IMG/VR virus record: IMGVR_UViG_3300025168_000038
Span: 1 to 64,000 of that record
Direction: 5' to 3' (one strand)
DNA: 64,000 nt
DNA from: a virus
A model generated the notes under the pieces. It searched no databases and had not been told where the DNA came from. It saw nothing but the letters and a program-made list of their open reading frames with translations. The number at the start of each line of letters is the position of its first letter. Within the stretch, counting starts at the first letter, position 1. Positions 12,862 to 64,000 of the stretch are shown here, one piece after another. Made by a program: the position numbers and the translations under genes.

Positions 12862-13056
12862 TTATTTTTTTGATTTATATCCGCCTCCGTTTGATTTATA
12901 TCTTTTTGCAAGCATTTGAGCTTTACGTGCAGACCATTGACCAGGAGCACCACCTTTACCACCAGCCTTAATTGAATTAAATAATCTCTTACGCATTGTG
13001 GGTTTAGTATAGTTTCCTGAACTATTTACCGTACTTTTCTTTTTTTTAACTGCCAT
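12862..13056 (-). CDS. Small basic protein, DUF5872-like
   Basis: 64 residues. The segment RKRLFNSIKAGGKGGAPGQW followed by SARKAQMLAKRYKSNGGGY matches a conserved phage motif that I recall as DUF5872. Strongly basic ends suggest nucleic-acid binding. The start ATG abuts the stop of the gene before it. Role unknown. Confidence 0.7.
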   Translation of the reverse strand: MAVKKKKSTVNSSGNYTKPTMRKRLFNSIKAGGKGGAPGQWSARKAQMLAKRYKSNGGGYKSKK

Positions 13057-13373
13057 TATTCTGATATTTGCGGATAAGACTTTTCCATTATTTTTTGTAG
13101 TTTAGCACATTTTTCATACTCCTCCGAGTCTATGTAGTGAAAGATCATATTCTCTAGTTGTTCCTGTGTAGGTCCAGCTATTGGGTCGTAAGCCATTACT
13201 GCCTCATGCCCTTTGTCAAACTTCTTTTCAAGTAAGTCATCAAAAGTTATTTGATTAGTTAAAACAAAATAAGAATTATTATATGCTGTATCTAAGATTA
13301 CTTGATCTAGTTGCATTTGTTCAAATTCTGTTAAACCTTCTTCATGCTCAGGTTCATTATCCCATTGTGACAT
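13056..13373 (-). CDS. Acidic hypothetical protein, first gene of the head operon
   Basis: 105 residues, acidic and helical, no membrane segment. It is the promoter-proximal gene of the minus-strand head operon and sits next to the divergent control region. The C-terminal half (SEEYEKCAKLQKIMEKSYP) resembles the UVR-like helix pair found in small phage proteins. Its acidity contrasts with the four basic proteins that follow. Function unknown. Confidence 0.65.
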   Translation of the reverse strand: MSQWDNEPEHEEGLTEFEQMQLDQVILDTAYNNSYFVLTNQITFDDLLEKKFDKGHEAVMAYDPIAGPTQEQLENMIFHYIDSEEYEKCAKLQKIMEKSYPQISE

Positions 13374-13603
13374 AAGTTTTGTTTTTAGTTATACTACATC
13401 TATAAGAATAATATACTAAAATTTCTAGTCCCATAAAAATTATTTAGCACTAACATGCCCCCCACCTGATTAAAAAAATTTCATCCCCCACCAAAGTTAT
13501 GTATTTTGCGTGCTATGTACCTCCTCCCCTTTTGCTCCCCACCTTATAATTGTGGTTGGGTTACCCCCCGTAATATTTCCACGTTAATTAAAATTTATTA
13601 ATT
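13374..13603. promoter_or_regulatory. Divergent control region with C-runs (G-runs on minus strand)
   Basis: This 230-base spacer separates the minus-strand head operon from the plus-strand early block. In an AT-rich genome it carries six C-rich clusters: C6 at 13458-13463, C5 at 13485-13489, CTCCTCCCC at 13521-13529, C4 at 13537-13540 and C6 at 13564-13569. Three of them share the form C4-6-ACC (13458-13466, 13485-13492, 13537-13543), read as GGTGGGG on the other strand. Promoters for both directions must lie here or nearby. The repeats could be binding sites, origin iterons or G-quadruplex formers. Confidence 0.6.
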
Positions 13604-13999
13604 ATGTTATATTTTTATTCCTTAAATCAAGGACAACGTACAGACGGTACTCAATTCCGTTCTATTATTGCAACTGACAAACCAGTTGCACAAACTAAGA
13701 CAGTATCAATAGGTACGCAATCTGCAGGTGCAGGTGCTAATCTAAGAGCTGTCAAATATGGTGCATTTAACCCACAAGATGACAATGGTCAACAGTTATC
13801 AGCTGACAATCCTTGGTGGGATAGTTTCATAGAAGATTTCTCCATTGATATGGAAAATCCTACTAGGTCTACTGAAAGATTTAAAACGTACCAAGGTAGC
13901 TTTGGTATATTGTCAGAAGATTTAGAACTGTCAGATACCAATGTAGTTAAATCAGATGGTACTACTGCAGATAATCTTTACTATGTGAAAACTAAGTAG
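13604..13999 (+). CDS. Hypothetical protein isolated in the control region
   Basis: 131 residues, soluble, Thr/Ser/Asp-rich (SIGTQSAGAGANLRAVKYGA), with no motif I recognise. It stands alone between two non-coding regions and is followed at once by a strong hairpin terminator, so it is a single-gene transcript, probably strongly expressed early. The A/T-rich start TTAATTATG lacks a Shine-Dalgarno site. A phage regulator or host-takeover protein would fit the position, but nothing in the sequence shows it. Confidence 0.7.
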   Translation: MLYFYSLNQGQRTDGTQFRSIIATDKPVAQTKTVSIGTQSAGAGANLRAVKYGAFNPQDDNGQQLSADNPWWDSFIEDFSIDMENPTRSTERFKTYQGSFGILSEDLELSDTNVVKSDGTTADNLYYVKTK

Positions 14000-14005
14000 A
14001 GTAAT

Positions 14006-14031
14006 AAGAGAGAGTGTAATAGCTCTCTCTT
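14006..14031 (+). terminator. Hairpin terminator
   Basis: AAGAGAGAG (14006-14014) pairs perfectly with CTCTCTCTT (14023-14031) around an 8-base loop, followed by TGTTTTTCT. It lies 7 bases after the stop at 13999. Confidence 0.8.
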
Positions 14032-14389
14032 TGTTTTTCTTATGCAATCTGTCACATGTTTGTGGTTTTCCACTACATACTGACACATGTTTCCCGTTTT
14101 GCTCTCCTTTCCTCTTGTTTGCTCCCTTTCTTTTGATTGTATGCATAACATGTACATTAAAGTGAGTGTTAAACTGTATGTACCTGGTCTCATATCCACA
14201 TATTACCACTATTTACCACATAATAATAATCATAGCTACTTATAATATATATATAGCTAGCAACAATACAAGTGTAACTATTACACACAACAATACAACA
14301 AGGGTAGTCTATGTCTCTCTCTCTATAGGATAATAGACATAGTACCCGGAATCTTATCAAATAATCTCTAACCAATAACAAAAACAATT
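14032..14389. other. Long non-coding region: direct repeats, pyrimidine tract, leader
   Basis: Bases 14032-14389 hold no supportable gene. They contain a direct repeat CTGWCACATGTTT (14049-14061 and 14080-14092, 31 bases apart, one mismatch), a pyrimidine-rich tract with two TTTGCTCYC copies (14097-14135) that echo one in the 13374-13603 region, an AT-rich stretch with TATATATATA, and a leader hairpin before the LRR gene. The asymmetry and repeats suggest a replication origin or a strong promoter region; neither is proven. Confidence 0.5.
14302..14347 (+). promoter_or_regulatory. Structured leader hairpin before the LRR gene
   Basis: GGGTA and CTATGTCT (14302-14316, two-base GU bulge) pair with AGACATAG and TACCC (14335-14347), a 13-pair stem with an 18-base loop. 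No T-run follows, so it is a leader structure and not a terminator. It ends 42 bases before the ATG at 14390. Confidence 0.55.
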
Positions 14390-22362: not shown

Positions 22363-23312
22363 AAGCAAAAGAATCATGGGTTGGACAATATGCTGCCTTT
22401 AATGAGGCGCTTAAATATATGTATGCCAGATCAACTGGTGAAGAGAAATCAATATATACTCCTTGGCCTAAGTTTAATGACGCAGCTACTGATGGTATAG
22501 AGTGGAACACATTGACTGTAATTGGTGGTAGACCTGGTTCAGGTAAAACATTAATTAAAGATCAAATTATTAGAGAATCATTTGCACTTAATCCTCATGA
22601 TAAATTTAGGGTATTAGAATTTCAATTTGAGATGGTTGGTAGAACATCAGCCATTAGAGAATTTAGTTCTATAACTGGTAAAACATATAAAGAATTATGT
22701 AGTGCTGGATCAACACTAAATACTGACACACTTAATCAATGTCATCAATATGCAAAGGAAAGAGTTAAACATCCGGTAGACATCATTAGTACACCAATGA
22801 CTGTTAATCAGATGCGTGAGCAGATAGATGCATATATGAATTTGCATAAAGGAGTAAATACAATGATAACTCTTGATCATACAATGTTAGTAAAGAGAGC
22901 ACCATATCAGAATAGTACATTAGATATGCTATTTGAGTTAGGTGAGTTCTTTACTCAGTGTAAAAGAGATTATCCTTGTTTGTTTCTGGCCTTATCACAA
23001 CTTAATAGAAACATAGACAACCCGGATAGGGCTATAGATGGCAAGTATGGTAACTATATATTAGAGTCAGATATATTTGGTTCAGATGCAATGCTACAGC
23101 ATGCAGATATGTTAATAGGTATCAACAGGCCAGCTAAACAGAAGATTAGGTTTTATGGACCTGATAGATATATAATAGAAAATGATAGAACATTAGTACT
23201 ACACTTTCTTAAGGCAAGAAATGGTGATGCAAGAATGAGTTTCTTCAGAGCAAAGTTTGAGCAAATGCAAATTGAAGAGATGGCTACACCTGGACAACAA
23301 GAACGTAGATGA
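22359..23312 (+). CDS. DnaB-like replicative helicase ATPase
   Basis: 317 residues, covering only the RecA-like C-terminal motor; the N-terminal primase-binding domain of bacterial DnaB is absent. GGRPGSGKT (Walker A) lies at about residues 55-63, NTMITLDHTML (Walker B) near 170, and LSQLNRN (motif H4) near 212. It unwinds DNA at the fork. It is translationally coupled to genes on both sides by 4-base overlaps. The separate primase gene downstream supplies the missing activity. Confidence 0.88.
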   Translation: MKAKESWVGQYAAFNEALKYMYARSTGEEKSIYTPWPKFNDAATDGIEWNTLTVIGGRPGSGKTLIKDQIIRESFALNPHDKFRVLEFQFEMVGRTSAIREFSSITGKTYKELCSAGSTLNTDTLNQCHQYAKERVKHPVDIISTPMTVNQMREQIDAYMNLHKGVNTMITLDHTMLVKRAPYQNSTLDMLFELGEFFTQCKRDYPCLFLALSQLNRNIDNPDRAIDGKYGNYILESDIFGSDAMLQHADMLIGINRPAKQKIRFYGPDRYIIENDRTLVLHFLKARNGDARMSFFRAKFEQMQIEEMATPGQQERR

Positions 23313-55078: not shown

Positions 55079-58000
55079 TTAATTACCAATATACCAACTG
55101 TCAAGTTTCTCAAAAGATTCCCACTTTTGTATGCTTGATAGAATTGGTGCTGCGTCAGCCAAGTTTTTCCAGAACTTTAAGTCTCCTTTTCTTGGTTTAT
55201 TTTGATACACAAGATCACTATCCTCTCTAAACTCTGGGCTATCAAAACCATAATATGATCCATATGCTAAAGTACCTAGACCTACAGAAAAGGCTTCTGC
55301 TAACTCACCAAGAGTTCTTGTAGAAGCAATTGGACTACCAATCATAGCAAAGAGTTCTTGTACACCATCAGGTGATATTGGAACAAACATTACCATTTCT
55401 TTATATGTTCTTTGTGTTTGATATTTTGCAAAGTTCTTTATTTTCTTAACCCATAGCGGCTCATCACCTTCATCATCATCCCATGCATTTTCTAATAGTG
55501 ACATCATCATCATGCTTAATATAATCATAGATGCTTCACCAACAGTTCTATTTATATTACCAACTTTGTTTTGTACTAAAGCTTCCATATCTGAAGCACT
55601 TATTTCCCCACCACTATCTGTTTGATTGTTTTCTCTGACAGAGTTTTTATATTCTGATACTACCTCACTCATTTTTACTTTTCCTGTTGCCACTTGTTTA
55701 AGTGAATATCTAAGAAACTGTAAAGATGATCTATATCTTCCTTCCATCCAACCTAAATTCTGATCATAGTACTGTTGTTGAAATCTAGCTCTCATTGCTG
55801 GTGGAAACCACTTATGAAACTGAAATAGTACTACACCCAACCAATGATTCTGTGCAACCGTTCTATCTATTCTAGCATAGTTACCATGTGTCTGTTTGTT
55901 TACTTCTCTTATTTCATTTCTTATATCAGCAAAGGCTTTAGTAGATTGAGTCAGAGGCCCTCCTATTTCAACTTCTATTCCTGTTACTTTATTAGGAACA
56001 TACTTAATCCACTTTTTATCATATGTAATCTCTTTCTTAACAGGATCCCATTGTGCAGCATCATACATACTAGCACTTGTGCCATCCTTTGCTATAAGCT
56101 GAGTATCAAATAATACAGCAGATCCAATTTTAGTTTGTACAGCATATTCAAATCCATCCTGTAATGTATAACCTATAGCTTTAAATCTTTCCCAAATAGT
56201 TTTTTGTCCAGATGATTCTCTACCAGATTCTCTTATATCTTGACTGTCATCCATCATTCTCCAGAACTCATTTACACCTTCATATTTATTTGTAGGTTTA
56301 TTTGGATCATATGAACGTCCTGCAAAGTTTGTTGCACCTATAGTAGATACATCCACAACCTCTGGAATACCATACATTGCTGTTCTTTTAATAATTCCAG
56401 CCATTCCTTCTGTATTAAACTCTTTTTCTGCCCGCAAGTATGCTTTTCTTGAAAAGAATCTACCACCTATACCTTCTATTGTATTATTGACTTGACCTAA
56501 TACAAAGTTATTTATGTTACCAAAAGGGTTAAAGGCTACATAAGCTAAGGATGAAACTGAAACTAACACCTCAACAAATCTGTCAACAAAACCTTTACTA
56601 TCTTTAGCATTATTATATAATACCATCTTTTGCCACATTCGTGCTCTACGTACTACATTCTTTTGAAGTCCTTCATTACCAGCTTCACCTTTAATATTCC
56701 ATTTTTCTGGTGTAACTTTATCTAACATTCCTGTAACTAAATTTCCTCCTGATTCAATGTATGATCTTTTTTCTAATACTTTTATTAATGCATTAATTGT
56801 ATCTTCTACAGCACCCATAGTCTCAAAATGTTCAGCCATTCTATTAAACTGTAATAAACTATCTGTTAAATCAGTGCTTACCTCACCTATAGTAGGCTGG
56901 CTTCTTTGTTTTTGTACTAAGCCTTCTAATATATTTCTTTGTTTATTATATTCTTTTAGTTTTATCTTTTTGTTTTTATAATCCTCTTTGAGCTGTGTAA
57001 TTTTATTTTCTAACTGAGTAAGTCTTTCTTCTACTCTAGGGTTACCAGTAAAAAATATAGGCATGCTATCCACTCTTTCTCCTAATTCATTAACAACAAC
57101 AGTTTTCTGTTCTGTAGTAGATGTAAATAAATTTTTCATACTTCTACTTGACTTAGCCCACATTCTGGTAAAGAATCCTCCATAAGCGTTTTTCTTTAAG
57201 TCATCTGCAATATTACTTTTTACCAACGGTATACTACCTAACATCTTTTGTCTTGTCTGTGGGGGTAATTTACTAAGCATCTCTCCTTCATACAACTCTA
57301 TAAACATATCATAGTATTCTCTACGTGCTACAGCTAATGCATCATTAACCTTAGGATCCATTATATCTATGTACTTTTGACTTCGCATATCTTCTGGCTT
57401 ACCTGTTTTTGGATCTATAGGTCTAGCTATTAGTCTAGGTTCAATGTAATCTTGCTTTACAGATGGATAAGTTTCATCACGTTTAATTTGACCTGTAGGC
57501 TCACCTGCCTTTTTAAAAGCTTTTACATAATCTGTAGTTCTATAATACTTAGCTCTATATTTAGTGTAGTCATTTTTTGATACACCACTACGCTTTTCCC
57601 AACTAAAAGACCTAGAGTTCCACTCTTCATAAACATTACGCACATCTTTAAACTCTTGTGTATATCTATGATAGTCACCATCTATTGGTTGTTTCTGATC
57701 ATTGATTATTTCAGCTCTCATAAACTGATTCACATTAGTCTTTAATCTAGATAGTTTTTTATTCCATTCTATATCTTTTCTACCTTGAGCTGTCTTTTTT
57801 GCTTCTTCAAGATTTGTAACATCTGCATATTGAAAAGGTACACCCGCTTCATCTTGTGTTGCAGCAAACAAATCTCTACGTCTTTCACGGAATTTTAAAC
57901 TTAATGGTTGTACATATGCATCAGGTTTTAGCTGACCGTTCTCATCAAAATTTAACATGAAATCATAGAGCCTATTTTTAGATACACCAGGTTGAAGTAA

Positions 58001-60868
58001 TCTAAGCTTTTCAGCTGCAGCTATAACTTTGCTATCACGCATAGAAATATTAGTTAATAACTTTTGCATTTGAGCTTTATAGATTTTATCCATTGTTGCT
58101 AATATAGCATCTTTACTTGTTGATAAATCTTTTGAATATAAGGCTGAATTAGATATATCAGGAACTGTTGTTAAAAGGGCTTGAAAGTCTGCCAAAGTAA
58201 ATGTCATACCTGAATGATCTTGAATAATAACTTTATCAGTTGGATCAAAACCATCTCTCATGTTTACTCTAACAACTTCTTCAGCAAAATCAAACAGTGC
58301 TCTATTTACTAATCCTTGTCTATCAATCTTTCTATTAACTACTGAGGCAGGACCATTTAGTTCAATTAATACTGCATTAATATTATTTATTAAATATCTT
58401 TGTGTAGCATTTAATTGTTCTATTAAACCTTTGTTTTGTTTAAAGCTATACAAACCCTCAAAGGTTGTCATAAATCTATTAAAACCTAATACTTTATTAA
58501 TAAAACCATCTTCTTTGACATTATCTGGATTACTAATATAATCTTTGTATTCTTTCATTTGTCTTAATGAATCCTGCAACAATGTTGTATATGTAGTAGA
58601 TATATCTTTATTATTTTCTGGATCAATCAATGCTAGATCTATAATAGCTAAAGTATTATCTATTTGTTCTTTAGCTTCTGCACTACTTCTTTCCATGTAG
58701 ATATTACTTTTTACTTTGTCTAACATTTCTTGTTTAGTAACAATAGCTAATCTATAATCTTTGATTGCACCAAATACAGAACTTAAAGCTACATTTTCAT
58801 ATGGATCTACAACTTCTATGTCTTCCATTAATGCATCTTCTATTTCTTCTTTTCTTGAATCATATGCAATTCCATCAGTACCACCTTCGTCTAATTTTTG
58901 ATCTAGCATTTCTCCTTCAACATTATAAACTGTCTCAGGAATTAAATAGTCTACATTAATACCATTATCCATTTCATTATGCGGAACTGTACTTGTATAT
59001 TCTAGTTTAGGGAGTGTAGATATATCATCATTTATTTGAATATTTATAGTTGATCTAGCAAATTTATCCATATCCACCTTATATCCCATGTTGGTAGCCA
59101 TTCTAGCTATAAGATTTATCTGAATAGCATCTTGTACTCTAAGAGGTAGCTCAGAAACATTATTATTTTTTAATCTGTTACCAGATGCTAATGGAACTAA
59201 GACATCTTCATATCCAGATGCTTGATCAGAATTAATTATATTAATTTTTATAATTTTTAAATTACCAAACTTATCAACTAATACTATATCTGCTTTTGCA
59301 GCAACATTAGTTTTAGGGTCAGAAAAAATAACATTAGTTAATATAACATCACTATCATTTTTGATTGTTACAATATCAGCTTTAATGTTTTCAAATGCTG
59401 CTTGTGCTAATTCTTTGTCCAATGATAAACCTTCAGATATTTCTTCAAAAGTTTTATATGATGCCACTGCATCAACTATAGTACTAATATCATTTTTAAT
59501 TGCTGTAGAAAACTTATCAGTTTTACCTATAACCTCACCAGCTGATTGATATGCTTCTCTTGTATTTATATCATAAAAAGTATTATTGTCTTTGTTAAGA
59601 ACCACTAGGTTGTTAATAAAGTTATTAGGTGTGTTAGCAGATAATGAATCTGATAAAGCAGCTGTTTCTTTTATATTATGAAACATTTCATTAATAACTG
59701 TTTTTTGTTGGTCTGTCCTAGAAGACTTCAAAGCTTGATTTACTAAACTTTGTTTTTCTGGTGTAAGATTATATCTTACTCTACCATTGATAGATTGACC
59801 TGTTTCAAAAGATATACCTGAAGTATTTAATAACTTAGCTACGTCAGACAAAGTTAGATCAGATCTTATTGCTTGTACTGGTAATTTTCTACCAGTTATA
59901 TATTGATTAAGGTTTTCAATTATATTTTTAAACCACTTAAGCAATTCTTCTATACTATTTAAAAAAGACTGTGTAGGACTTTCTTCATACTCTTTATTAA
60001 AATGTCTTGACAAAGCTTGAGTAACTACTTCCATTTCCCTTTCCTCTGCAGTTATATTTCTTTTCTTATTATATGCATCTTCTATTTGTTGAGTCATCTC
60101 AGGAAACATACGTCTAGATTCATCTAATAAAGTTTCATACAATGGAATGTTATCTACCTTTACTGCCTCTATAAAAGGATGTAGCATTTCTTCAATTAGT
60201 ATTTCATCAGTGACTCTACCTTTAATTAAAATAGCATTATTAGCAACATAAAAAGAATTAACCTGTGAAAAAGGTACTTTAGCTTTTCTCCACTGTGGTA
60301 ATAAATCATACTTCTTTTTTGCTTCTGTAGGTGTAAGTAATTGTACACTTACATCAGGAAACATCCTCATTAAATGTTTTACTACTTGCCTTGCTCTAGG
60401 GGTGTCCCAAGATCTTGATTGAGGAAGCATGTCTTTTGCTGTAAATAAATTACTATTAACTGACACTGCATATGTTTTAGGAGTCTTATCTATATTTAAT
60501 GAGTCTGCTGGTAAATTATTAGCCTCTAAATATCTTTTTGCTCTTCTAACATTTGAATCTATTAATGAATCACTTATCTGTAATGTATCTTGATCAGTAT
60601 TATTTATATAGTAAGAACCTTGATGACTATGAATAATCTTTTCTCTACTTAGATTATTTAATAAGGCTTGTCCAAATTCTTTTTGCTTTAAATTGTTTAA
60701 AGCTCTTTTATCTTTAACATATGAAGCAGCCTCTACTACAGTAGGAATTGCATCACTATCAGTTGATTCTTGCCAACTATTAATAACATTAGTAGTTATA
60801 AGATCTGTTTTATAAACTTCTAATAATGCTATATACTCTGCCGTGTTTTTATTTGGACATTTTGCCAT
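55079..60868 (-). CDS. Giant virion protein (1929 residues), crAss-like cargo
   Basis: Next to the RNA polymerase gene, 2 bases apart. Near residue 226 IEEMLHPFIEAV has an E-E-x-x-H arrangement like a HExxH zincin with the first His replaced. The middle is long and helical with charged coiled coils (about 1300-1360). Near residues 1460-1480 a hydrophobic stretch (VSSLAYVAFNPFGNINNF) and near 1770 ASMIILSMMMMSLL suggest membrane contact. Such giants are packed in crAss-like virions and ejected with the DNA. No enzymatic role is proven. Confidence 0.75.
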   Translation of the reverse strand: MAKCPNKNTAEYIALLEVYKTDLITTNVINSWQESTDSDAIPTVVEAASYVKDKRALNNLKQKEFGQALLNNLSREKIIHSHQGSYYINNTDQDTLQISDSLIDSNVRRAKRYLEANNLPADSLNIDKTPKTYAVSVNSNLFTAKDMLPQSRSWDTPRARQVVKHLMRMFPDVSVQLLTPTEAKKKYDLLPQWRKAKVPFSQVNSFYVANNAILIKGRVTDEILIEEMLHPFIEAVKVDNIPLYETLLDESRRMFPEMTQQIEDAYNKKRNITAEEREMEVVTQALSRHFNKEYEESPTQSFLNSIEELLKWFKNIIENLNQYITGRKLPVQAIRSDLTLSDVAKLLNTSGISFETGQSINGRVRYNLTPEKQSLVNQALKSSRTDQQKTVINEMFHNIKETAALSDSLSANTPNNFINNLVVLNKDNNTFYDINTREAYQSAGEVIGKTDKFSTAIKNDISTIVDAVASYKTFEEISEGLSLDKELAQAAFENIKADIVTIKNDSDVILTNVIFSDPKTNVAAKADIVLVDKFGNLKIIKINIINSDQASGYEDVLVPLASGNRLKNNNVSELPLRVQDAIQINLIARMATNMGYKVDMDKFARSTINIQINDDISTLPKLEYTSTVPHNEMDNGINVDYLIPETVYNVEGEMLDQKLDEGGTDGIAYDSRKEEIEDALMEDIEVVDPYENVALSSVFGAIKDYRLAIVTKQEMLDKVKSNIYMERSSAEAKEQIDNTLAIIDLALIDPENNKDISTTYTTLLQDSLRQMKEYKDYISNPDNVKEDGFINKVLGFNRFMTTFEGLYSFKQNKGLIEQLNATQRYLINNINAVLIELNGPASVVNRKIDRQGLVNRALFDFAEEVVRVNMRDGFDPTDKVIIQDHSGMTFTLADFQALLTTVPDISNSALYSKDLSTSKDAILATMDKIYKAQMQKLLTNISMRDSKVIAAAEKLRLLQPGVSKNRLYDFMLNFDENGQLKPDAYVQPLSLKFRERRRDLFAATQDEAGVPFQYADVTNLEEAKKTAQGRKDIEWNKKLSRLKTNVNQFMRAEIINDQKQPIDGDYHRYTQEFKDVRNVYEEWNSRSFSWEKRSGVSKNDYTKYRAKYYRTTDYVKAFKKAGEPTGQIKRDETYPSVKQDYIEPRLIARPIDPKTGKPEDMRSQKYIDIMDPKVNDALAVARREYYDMFIELYEGEMLSKLPPQTRQKMLGSIPLVKSNIADDLKKNAYGGFFTRMWAKSSRSMKNLFTSTTEQKTVVVNELGERVDSMPIFFTGNPRVEERLTQLENKITQLKEDYKNKKIKLKEYNKQRNILEGLVQKQRSQPTIGEVSTDLTDSLLQFNRMAEHFETMGAVEDTINALIKVLEKRSYIESGGNLVTGMLDKVTPEKWNIKGEAGNEGLQKNVVRRARMWQKMVLYNNAKDSKGFVDRFVEVLVSVSSLAYVAFNPFGNINNFVLGQVNNTIEGIGGRFFSRKAYLRAEKEFNTEGMAGIIKRTAMYGIPEVVDVSTIGATNFAGRSYDPNKPTNKYEGVNEFWRMMDDSQDIRESGRESSGQKTIWERFKAIGYTLQDGFEYAVQTKIGSAVLFDTQLIAKDGTSASMYDAAQWDPVKKEITYDKKWIKYVPNKVTGIEVEIGGPLTQSTKAFADIRNEIREVNKQTHGNYARIDRTVAQNHWLGVVLFQFHKWFPPAMRARFQQQYYDQNLGWMEGRYRSSLQFLRYSLKQVATGKVKMSEVVSEYKNSVRENNQTDSGGEISASDMEALVQNKVGNINRTVGEASMIILSMMMMSLLENAWDDDEGDEPLWVKKIKNFAKYQTQRTYKEMVMFVPISPDGVQELFAMIGSPIASTRTLGELAEAFSVGLGTLAYGSYYGFDSPEFREDSDLVYQNKPRKGDLKFWKNLADAAPILSSIQKWESFEKLDSWYIGN

Positions 60869-60870
60869 AA

Positions 60871-63800
60871 CTATAAATTACATTTTTTAATTTGATCAAT
60901 TAATTCTTGTGGGCTACCCCACATAGAGTTAGGATTCCTATCATACAAATCTAATAAATCTTCTAAACTATTAATATTATTTTCTCTTTTAAAGTTTTTA
61001 ACCTCTGTACTAAATGAACCATCTTCTATATTGCTATCCCAAAACTCTGTTATTTCAGGATGACTAATAAAAGGATCAAACATATCTAACTGACCTATCA
61101 ACTCCTGTCTATTCTCACTAATAGGAAGCTCTTCTACTTCTAATATACCTAGTTCTTCAGAAGTAATATTGTCTGTTGCCTCTGCAATTGATGCCGCAAT
61201 AGCATCTAATTCTGCAGTGTCTACTATATTTACACTATCTATAATTACTGATTCGTCTGTTACATCCAGATTAATAGATTGATTACGGAATATTTGTGGT
61301 ACAGTTTTACTTGTATCTTCTGTTTCTTTAACAACCTCTGGTGTGCTTTTTGATACTTCAGGTTTCTCCATCATTTGTTTTAGAGTAGGTCTATTACCAA
61401 ACATAAATCCTGCACCAAACTGTAAAGGAGAACCTATCAAATCAACTGATGTTTTTTCTTGATCATTTCTTTGATATATAGTTGATTCTATACCGGTCTG
61501 ACGGTCTATAGTATCCATCCTTTTTATTGCAATTGAATCAGTTTCAGAATTAAACTTTCTTGGTAATAACTTAGCATTAGATGCAGATAGCAAATAGTTT
61601 TCTACAAAAGATGTCGTACCTCCAGCATCTGTAAATTCTTTAGATCTTAAATATTTTTCTGTAGAATTAATTTCAGATAAATAGTCTTCTAGAACATACG
61701 GGCTAATTGATTCTAATAAACCACCCGGTGCTAATTGTAAACCATCTTTAACCATAATATAATTTATAACAGTTTTTGCAAATTGTCTTGTATCAGGGTT
61801 ATTGTATAATTTATTAAATGAGGTTTGTAGATCATATTTTTGTAATCTATTTAGCTTTCTCCATGTGTTTGCTTGAGCTAGATACAAACCTGATCTATTA
61901 CCCTTATCAGTTGGTTTGTATGTTGTAACAAAATCAAATAAAAAGAAATTGCCAGGATCACTTATTCTAAGTTGTTCTACTGCATGCCATACATTACCTT
62001 GTTCATTATCTTGTCCTGGATATAGTATACCGTTACTTAAAGGATTATTTTTATCTATATTTTGATATGCACTTAATGTGACAAATGCTAATACATCTTT
62101 TTTAACTTTTGTTCTAACGGCCTCACTATTCTTATATAAGTTTGTATCTAATCTTCCAACTAATTCTGATGTAATTCTTTTTACACCTGGTGTCTGTGAT
62201 AAAAACATCTTTGGTAAAATATTTACATTTATGTCTGATAGTTGTTCAGATAATCCAGATAGATATGAACTACTCAACATATTTCTTACCTTTATAAAAT
62301 AAGGATTTTTTATAAAATCATTTATGCTTTCTACCCTTTGAGAAATACTATCAATGTTTTTTCCTAATCCATTGTTAAGACTTACTAGACTATTTAATTT
62401 AACCGTAAAATTAGATATAGTAATTACTTTTGCAAAAACCTGTAAGGCCCCTTGTAATTCAAGTACTTCTAAATTATCAGCTACTCCTCTTTCTAAAGCA
62501 TCTTTATCAGGAACTATACCCTTTACTATTTTTCCTTTATCATCTCTTTCTATTAGATCATTTATTCTATCTCCAATAGAAGGAGATATACCATCACTAT
62601 TATCAATTTGTCTATATATATCTTGTATAATTTTTTGATTTAAAAGTAGTATAGAAGTTTCTAACGGAACACCAAGTTGAATCATATTTGATAACATACG
62701 TGTAGCATGAGCGTTCAAACCTAACTTACTTACCAAAAACTCTTTAGCATTGTCTGTCATAGCAACTATTAGAGAAGACATTAAATCTTGTTTTCTCATT
62801 CCGTTTTCATTTAAAGTTCCACCAAAAGACTTATACTCTTTACCATCAAGCTCAAACTTTAAAGTACCTAAACCTATTTTATATTCTTTAAATAAAGACA
62901 AATATAAATTTGGTGAAACTACTGAACCAATTGAAGCACCCTTATTGTTTGTAAAAGCAACAGTTTGTCCAGTAAGGGTATCTATATCTTTACCTGCTTG
63001 GTTAGTTCTTTCTGAAAAACCAGGTAATTTTCTAACACTCTCCCAAACATTCTTTAATAAATCTAAGTTAGACGGTCTATAAGCTATTGGATATGTACCT
63101 GATGTTAAATAATCATTACTTACTAATTGACGTTTATAATCTACTAGTTTATTGCTTACAGGTGCTTCATAAGGAGCCTGCTTATTATCTTTTACAAATT
63201 GATTAAACTCACTTTGAGTAATAGGCATACCTAATACTTTTAAAGCACCAACAGCATTCTTACTAAAGCCAGCATTTTCAGCAGGTGTTTGATCTATATC
63301 AACTAATGAATCAGATATTATAACACCTTGTAGTTTATATAATTTTATAGCTTCAGAATATTGGTTTCCTGTTTCATTAACCTTTTTGTTTACATAATTA
63401 ATATAACTAGAATAATTATTTTCATATGCTTTAAACTCACCTTTCTCTACATAAAACTCCTTCATGTGTATGTATGCTTGATCTATATCAAAATCTGCAC
63501 CAGACACTTCTATAAGTTCATTTGAAAACATTGCTGAACCTCCCATGAAGTTGGGTAAAAAATCTACAACCTTTACATTAAAGGCAGAATGATAGTCTTC
63601 ACTAGGTATACGTACAGCATACATCTCACTAACTACATCAGGTATAGTATTTTTATATCTTCTATATTTACTCTTATAAGCCAATAAGTCATTTACTTCT
63701 TTTGATTGAGGAGGCATAATTGCTTCAGAATATCTTTGACCTTGATATTCACCACCTTTATATTCTTTTAAGTTATATCTTAAACGGTCTACTATAATAA

Positions 63801-64000
63801 CACCTTCAGCTGGTAAAGGATCACCAGTGTTTAATTCTTCAAGGCTTCTATTATCTAATGTAAAGTTTCCATTAAGAAATTCATTTTCTCTTATTACTTC
63901 TTGTCTATCAGGAGTAACTTTACCATTAAAGGTTTCTATACTAAATACTCTTCTGTATACATTCTTTCCTAATGATGATACTAATGCAACACTAGTTCCA
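60871..64000 (-). CDS. Virion RNA polymerase, crAss-like (5' end cut by window edge)
   Basis: The frame is open to the right edge (about 1042 residues visible); the ATG at 63717 is internal, since coding continues upstream (VIIVDRLRYNLKEY). The key segment YAVRIPSEDYHSAFNVKVVD followed by ELIEVSGADFDIDQAYIHM contains the D-F-D-x-D metal motif (bases 63481-63495) that crAss-like virion RNA polymerases share with double-psi beta-barrel RNA polymerases. The enzyme is packed in the capsid and injected to transcribe early genes. The C-terminal 250 residues are acidic and probably separate. Family assignment rests on this motif and its neighbourhood. Confidence 0.8.
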   Translation of the reverse strand, partial: GTSVALVSSLGKNVYRRVFSIETFNGKVTPDRQEVIRENEFLNGNFTLDNRSLEELNTGDPLPAEGVIIVDRLRYNLKEYKGGEYQGQRYSEAIMPPQSKEVNDLLAYKSKYRRYKNTIPDVVSEMYAVRIPSEDYHSAFNVKVVDFLPNFMGGSAMFSNELIEVSGADFDIDQAYIHMKEFYVEKGEFKAYENNYSSYINYVNKKVNETGNQYSEAIKLYKLQGVIISDSLVDIDQTPAENAGFSKNAVGALKVLGMPITQSEFNQFVKDNKQAPYEAPVSNKLVDYKRQLVSNDYLTSGTYPIAYRPSNLDLLKNVWESVRKLPGFSERTNQAGKDIDTLTGQTVAFTNNKGASIGSVVSPNLYLSLFKEYKIGLGTLKFELDGKEYKSFGGTLNENGMRKQDLMSSLIVAMTDNAKEFLVSKLGLNAHATRMLSNMIQLGVPLETSILLLNQKIIQDIYRQIDNSDGISPSIGDRINDLIERDDKGKIVKGIVPDKDALERGVADNLEVLELQGALQVFAKVITISNFTVKLNSLVSLNNGLGKNIDSISQRVESINDFIKNPYFIKVRNMLSSSYLSGLSEQLSDINVNILPKMFLSQTPGVKRITSELVGRLDTNLYKNSEAVRTKVKKDVLAFVTLSAYQNIDKNNPLSNGILYPGQDNEQGNVWHAVEQLRISDPGNFFLFDFVTTYKPTDKGNRSGLYLAQANTWRKLNRLQKYDLQTSFNKLYNNPDTRQFAKTVINYIMVKDGLQLAPGGLLESISPYVLEDYLSEINSTEKYLRSKEFTDAGGTTSFVENYLLSASNAKLLPRKFNSETDSIAIKRMDTIDRQTGIESTIYQRNDQEKTSVDLIGSPLQFGAGFMFGNRPTLKQMMEKPEVSKSTPEVVKETEDTSKTVPQIFRNQSINLDVTDESVIIDSVNIVDTAELDAIAASIAEATDNITSEELGILEVEELPISENRQELIGQLDMFDPFISHPEITEFWDSNIEDGSFSTEVKNFKRENNINSLEDLLDLYDRNPNSMWGSPQELIDQIKKCNL

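Follow-up and report, generated by a model that had tools for sequence, protein, structure and literature searches.

At the junction analysed here, the late (head) block and the early block of a phage genome are transcribed away from each other across a short intergenic gap (Table 1). The window, i.e. the whole stretch of 64,000 bases that was analysed, is bases 1–64000 of a 108,143-base IMG/VR virus record (GC 32%). Within 112 bases of the gap (13458–13569) lie five runs of four or more C residues (C4+): C6 at 13458, C5 at 13485, C4 at 13526, C4 at 13537 and C6 at 13564. The original prediction had noticed six C-rich clusters in 112 bases of an AT-rich genome, and these were recovered, with CCTCC at 13520–13524 as the sixth, as were its three runs of the form C4–6-ACC (13458, 13485 and 13537). 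The gap holds 5 of the 30 C4+ runs on the plus strand of the whole window; the next densest 115-base stretch elsewhere in the record has two, and the density never exceeded three in 100 first-order Markov simulations of the record. CCCCACC occurs five times in the window, against 0.99 expected, and three of the five are in the gap. Four of these runs fall into two pairs, each with a start-to-start distance of exactly 27 bases (13458/13485 and 13537/13564), a regularity that the original prediction had missed; these are the only C4/C4 pairs with a spacing of 22–33 in the 108,143-base record.

Table 1. Features of the divergent control region and the polymerase genes (record coordinates)
Feature	Position	Strand	Details
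Gap between divergent genes	13374–13603		230 bases, between minus-strand gene 13056–13373 and plus-strand gene 13604–13999
First gene of late/head block, 105 aa	13056–13373	−	Divergent from the element; kept in relatives
Upstream C-run pair	13458–13492	+	CCCCCCACC (13458–13466) and CCCCCACC (13485–13492), start-to-start 27; AT-rich CTGATTAAAAAAATTT between
Conserved spacer	13493–13525	+	Consensus AAAATTGTGTATTTGGCGTGCT
Core early motif TTTTGCTCCCCACCT	13530–13544	+	TGCTCCCC at 13533–13540
Downstream C-run pair	13537–13569	+	CCCC (13537) and CCCCCC (13564), start-to-start 27; GTGG (13552–13555) and GGG-TTA-CCC between
CCAC	13579–13582	+	Could pair with GTGG at 13552–13555; TTATCCACA here in several relatives
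First early gene, 131 aa	13604–13999	+	Directly downstream of the element
Secondary copy TGCTCTCC	14100–14107	+	Leader before gene 14390
Secondary copy TGCTCCCT	14120–14127	+	Leader before gene 14390
1,929-aa ORF	55079–60868	−	Similar to phi14:2 RNA-polymerase-associated gp65
4,387-aa ORF	60871–74034 (window part 60871–64000)	−	Similar to phi14:2 virion RNA polymerase catalytic subunit gp66

The phage is a marine crAss-like phage. Its terminase and portal match crAss-like PHROGs (phrog_6681, E 6e-63, and phrog_6547, E 8e-92), and the terminase matches, at 21–28% identity, come mostly from crAss-like phages and related phages of Bacteroidota. Besides the crAss-like terminase large subunit, the portal and the opposed gene blocks, it has the giant virion RNA polymerase with the DFDID active-site motif that is found in Crassvirales. 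No viruses are more abundant in the human gut than crAss-like phages. Their virion RNA polymerase is an unusual one, a relative of the eukaryotic RNA-interference polymerases; we take it to be of the QDE-1/YonO-like rather than the T7-like type. The 4,387-aa ORF aligns with phi14:2 gp66 around the catalytic DFDID at residue 3514 (E 1e-7), and the adjoining 1,929-aa ORF matches gp65 (E 1e-7; phmmer 6e-12). Thus, the window phage has a virion polymerase of the crAss type. The larger ORF is about twice the length of gp66, with the polymerase-like part near its C-terminal end.

The same junction was then compared in related phages, as the original prediction had suggested. The region is kept in ~25 distinct close relatives, and the minus-strand G-runs proved to be conserved rather than lost. 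The core of the region in close relatives is TGCTCCCC plus ACCCCCCGTAA, and an exact 23-mer from it, GTGGTTGGGTTACCCCCCGTAAT, was found in 12 viral contigs. The upstream pair is kept in most close relatives and is degenerate in one (L117); the C-run at 13526 occurs only in the closest relatives of the window. Searches with the neighbouring proteins gave more distant relatives, with early-gene proteins down to ~27–37% identical, and TGCTCCCC plus the second C-run was kept at all complete junctions found via the left-hand protein. In an alignment of 25 distinct regions, TGCTCCCC, GTGG and CCCC are nearly fixed amid variable bases. Some of the aligned regions had been picked with a pattern that itself includes GCTCCCC and GTGG; for those letters, fixation is to be judged on the protein-found loci only. 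The matches listed for a loose DNA pattern in viral contigs were mostly unrelated GC-rich phages and, of these matches, only AT-rich ones that also had a second C-run were retained, so selection accounts in part for the invariance of GCTCCCC in the pattern-found subset. Searches of the region by blastn against phages gave weak chance matches only, tblastn of the left-hand protein against annotated phages gave no relative, and an Rfam search of the region gave no family. The spacer at 13493–13525 may be an upstream part of the promoter region.

The core word reappears singly upstream of other early genes. Across the whole record, TGCTCCC or TGCTCTCC occurs at 13533, 14100 and 14120, all on the plus strand and in two early leaders, the sole other occurrence being at 66196 in a coding stretch; for a slightly wider word, TGCTC(C/T)C(C/T), 0.03 occurrences are expected in the two early intergenic gaps. 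In a relative, G001, CTGCTCCCCAACT stands at 22596, 22835, 25538 and 34100, each time before an early gene and on that gene's strand, and a fifth word, TGCTCCCCCAC at 99489 in an apparent coding stretch, is probably due to chance. The motif also recurs before other early genes on the sense strand in relative G009. An equivalent in Flavobacterium phage FPSV-S29 is CCC(T/C)CACT(T/C)ATT: in 29 kb there are five occurrences, all of them on the early strand, and the 19 kb of late genes contain none. In some relatives (L019:2907-3936 and L049), the first early gene is joined by a second paralogue, itself preceded by a separate TGCTCCC(C/T)nCC motif.

Two further features lie in the same part of the window. 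Right after the 131-aa gene is a terminator-like hairpin with a T-run, AGAGAGAGTGTAATAGCTCTCTCTTTGTTTTT (14006–14038), so that this gene would be a single-gene transcription unit. A second conserved noncoding block (14302–14354, consensus TGTCTCTTCCTCTATAGGATAATAGACATAGTACCCGnAATATT), in the leader before gene 14390, is present in ~25 relatives regardless of the gene that follows. Individual sequences form a stem around CTATAGG when folded, but consensus folding of the alignment yielded no structure.

A shared layout was seen across crAss-like phages: at the late/early junction, the strand of the early genes carries CCCC and, 24–30 bases further downstream, CCCC again, often with GGGG between. 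It is present in phi14:2, cr116_1, crAss001, cr112_1, DAC15, cr126_1, cr108_1 and cr85_1 (Steigviridae), in cr50_1, cr55_1, cr1_1, cr10_1, cr113_1 and cr118_1 (Suoliviridae), in cr11_1 and cr8_1 (Intestiviridae), and in FPSV-S29. The junction sequences are CATCCCCCACTCTTTTTTGGAATTGGGGAGTATCCCCAAGGG in phi14:2, CTCCCCCATCACTTAGCCAGTGGGGTCCTACCCCC in crAss001, GTCCCCCCTTGGTTTTGAGTTTGGGGTTATACCCCC in DAC15 and GTCCCCTCTCCTAACAAGTAGGGGAAATCCCCC in cr50_1. A rule (C4+ to C4+, ~26–30 apart, early strand, junction) was fixed beforehand from eight genomes, with junctions taken as annotated in the deposited records. Among genomes fetched afterwards, the strict pair was found at 9 of the 11 testable junctions (cr10_1, cr112_1, cr126_1, cr11_1, cr108_1, cr85_1, cr113_1, cr118_1 and cr8_1), cr10_1 having two overlapping pairs with spacings of 24 and 30; ProJPt-Bp1, cr272_1 and cr111_1 stand outside this count, as the stretches examined held no junction. 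The Markov expectation for a pair is at most ~0.005 per junction, and no strict pair was present on the opposite strand at any junction tested. The late/early gap of p-crAssphage (BK010471; L232:2133-2638) is without the C-pair; upstream of a RepL-type gene it has, instead, a long inverted repeat, CTCCCCGTGGAGGATG ... CATCCTCCACGGGGAG.

The position, orientation, spacing, conservation and recurrence of the element are observed, as is the presence of the polymerase genes. It lies just upstream of early genes, in sense orientation, and it recurs. Among the three readings that had been offered for the C-runs (polymerase promoter sites, origin iterons or minus-strand G-quadruplexes), we favour the first because the element is conserved at the junction in distant relatives, lies on the early sense strand and recurs as single copies before other early genes. 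In most of the crAss-like phages examined, the paired element before the first early gene is probably a start signal for early transcription, judging from sequence comparison. Transcription of phi14:2 by its virion RNA polymerase was reportedly described by Drobysheva et al. in 2021. The early genes of phi14:2 are transcribed by the injected virion RNA polymerase in a rifampicin-resistant manner (review, PMC10136315), and this polymerase is therefore, we infer, the most likely reader of the element. Phi14:2 shares with the window phage both the homologous polymerase genes and the late/early junction with a C-run pair. With moderate confidence, then, we read the C-runs as the early promoter region of a crAss-like phage, most likely used by the virion RNA polymerase. 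The word ‘promoter’ is absent from the 2023 Crassvirales review (PMC10136315), and no published promoter for crAss-like phages or their virion polymerase was found in the literature searched; the element is perhaps the long-missing promoter of this polymerase.

In the mechanism proposed, the virion RNA polymerase (the giant DFDID protein with its gp65-like partner) would enter the cell with the DNA and read the element. The bipartite recognition element would consist of two C-runs on the sense strand, spaced ~27 bases and lying just upstream of the first early gene; transcription is presumed to start at it, and the shorter single copy TGCTCCC would drive further early genes. Several observations count against a promoter. 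There is no C4/C4 pair in p-crAssphage, either in the annotated junction or in the 8.5 kb read, and cr125_1 has only a weakened form, C5...C3 at 28. No secondary copies were seen in phi14:2 or in the early region of crAss001. In cr108_1 a small annotated ORF next to the junction contains the pair, and in crAss001 the pair is located between gp2 and gp1. One site per genome would also suit an origin or a packaging site.

The nearest known system is that of the N4 virion RNA polymerase early promoters (Schitoviridae), in which a giant polymerase is likewise injected with the DNA and the site likewise precedes the early block. In N4 the promoter is a hairpin, in which certain bases are required and the loop has a defined length of 3 bases (PMC4496689); a short G/C hairpin, with a loop of 3–6 bases, could also form at many of the crAss-like copies. 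Unlike in N4, the constant crAss-like feature is the two C-runs ~27 apart, and a hairpin is absent from FPSV-S29, from the upstream pair of the window and from the single copies; the polymerase, too, differs in type, being QDE-1/YonO-like and not T7-like. Since folding is not above shuffles and some genera lack the hairpin, we do not claim membership of the N4 hairpin class. Bacteroidota host RNA polymerase promoters have the form −33 TTTG/−7 TAnnTTTG. They too lie upstream of genes, and the phage is one of this host phylum, but the C-run element bears no resemblance to them; a loosely similar TGTnTTTG was seen in the 13493–13525 spacer.

An unlikely alternative, though more probable than the rest, is a replication origin, in which the C-runs would be binding sites for a phage initiator, the AT-rich flank would melt and the divergent promoters would merely adjoin. 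Each genome has a single cluster, located where gene orientation switches, and cumulative GC skew has its minimum at 14–15 kb. Left of the junction, third-position skew lies between −0.34 and −0.47; on the right it is mostly +0.2 to +0.4 and fades to ~0 at 39–46 kb, so it does not simply track the coding strand. The skew, for which the original prediction had proposed to look, does change sign near 13–18 kb, but the genes also switch direction there, and overall skew also shifts with gene orientation at 50–53 kb. The sequence TTATCCACA, which follows the second C-run in several relatives, is the DnaA-box consensus, but no such sequence is present in the window. In p-crAssphage, the first early gene encodes a RepL-type initiator, yet the C-pair is missing from the late/early gap. 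Copies of the motif are spread over separate early genes, each upstream of its gene and in sense orientation, rather than being regularly spaced direct repeats confined to one origin, and iterons are disfavoured for this reason.

It is improbable that the element is a packaging or genome-terminus signal marking the terminase cut, since its secondary copies before early genes would then have no place. The element of DAC15 is 13 bases from the end of an annotated 1,842-base exact terminal repeat (L227:1-1842, L226:654-2495), and the cr85_1 record begins inside the element. In five contigs of the window's clade (L002, L015, L028, L038 and L040), the contig end falls in the control region or no more than a few hundred bases from it, and these may be physical ends or assembly breaks. 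However, neither the window record nor G001 or G002 has an end here, and an early promoter near the first-entering end would give the same pattern. With the terminal repeat next to the element, the early genes of DAC15 would start at the physical genome end.

We give an equally low probability to an element acting at the RNA level, where C- and G-runs would form alternative hairpins in the early leader and control translation or termination. A run of G3–5 does precede the second C-run by 3–6 bases in most genera, and GTGG and CCAC flank that run in close relatives, but FPSV-S29, cr10_1, cr11_1, cr8_1 and the upstream pair of the window have no such G partner, and no hairpin is seen in the single copies. 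Folded as single strands, the whole region showed no excess stability on either strand, and the folding energies of 21 separate elements, as RNA or DNA, were mostly within those of dinucleotide shuffles. A minus-strand G-quadruplex is very improbable: GGTGGGGAGCAAAAGGGGAGGAGG fits a two-tier G2 pattern, but this lone stretch relies on the non-conserved run at 13526, the runs elsewhere are 27 apart, and neither strand has four G3+ tracts with loops of 1–7, or of 1–12.

To return to the promoter reading, it is quite possible, if still tentative, that the element represents a promoter class found throughout Crassvirales, in which a virion polymerase of the RNA-interference lineage recognizes two C-runs ~27 apart, located towards the first-entering genome end and in some genera accompanied by a G/C hairpin. 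A short sequence defined by its spacing that predicts the start of early transcription in several families would make the promoter question directly testable, and the C-pair would serve as a marker to orient metagenomic crAss-like genomes and to find their early end.
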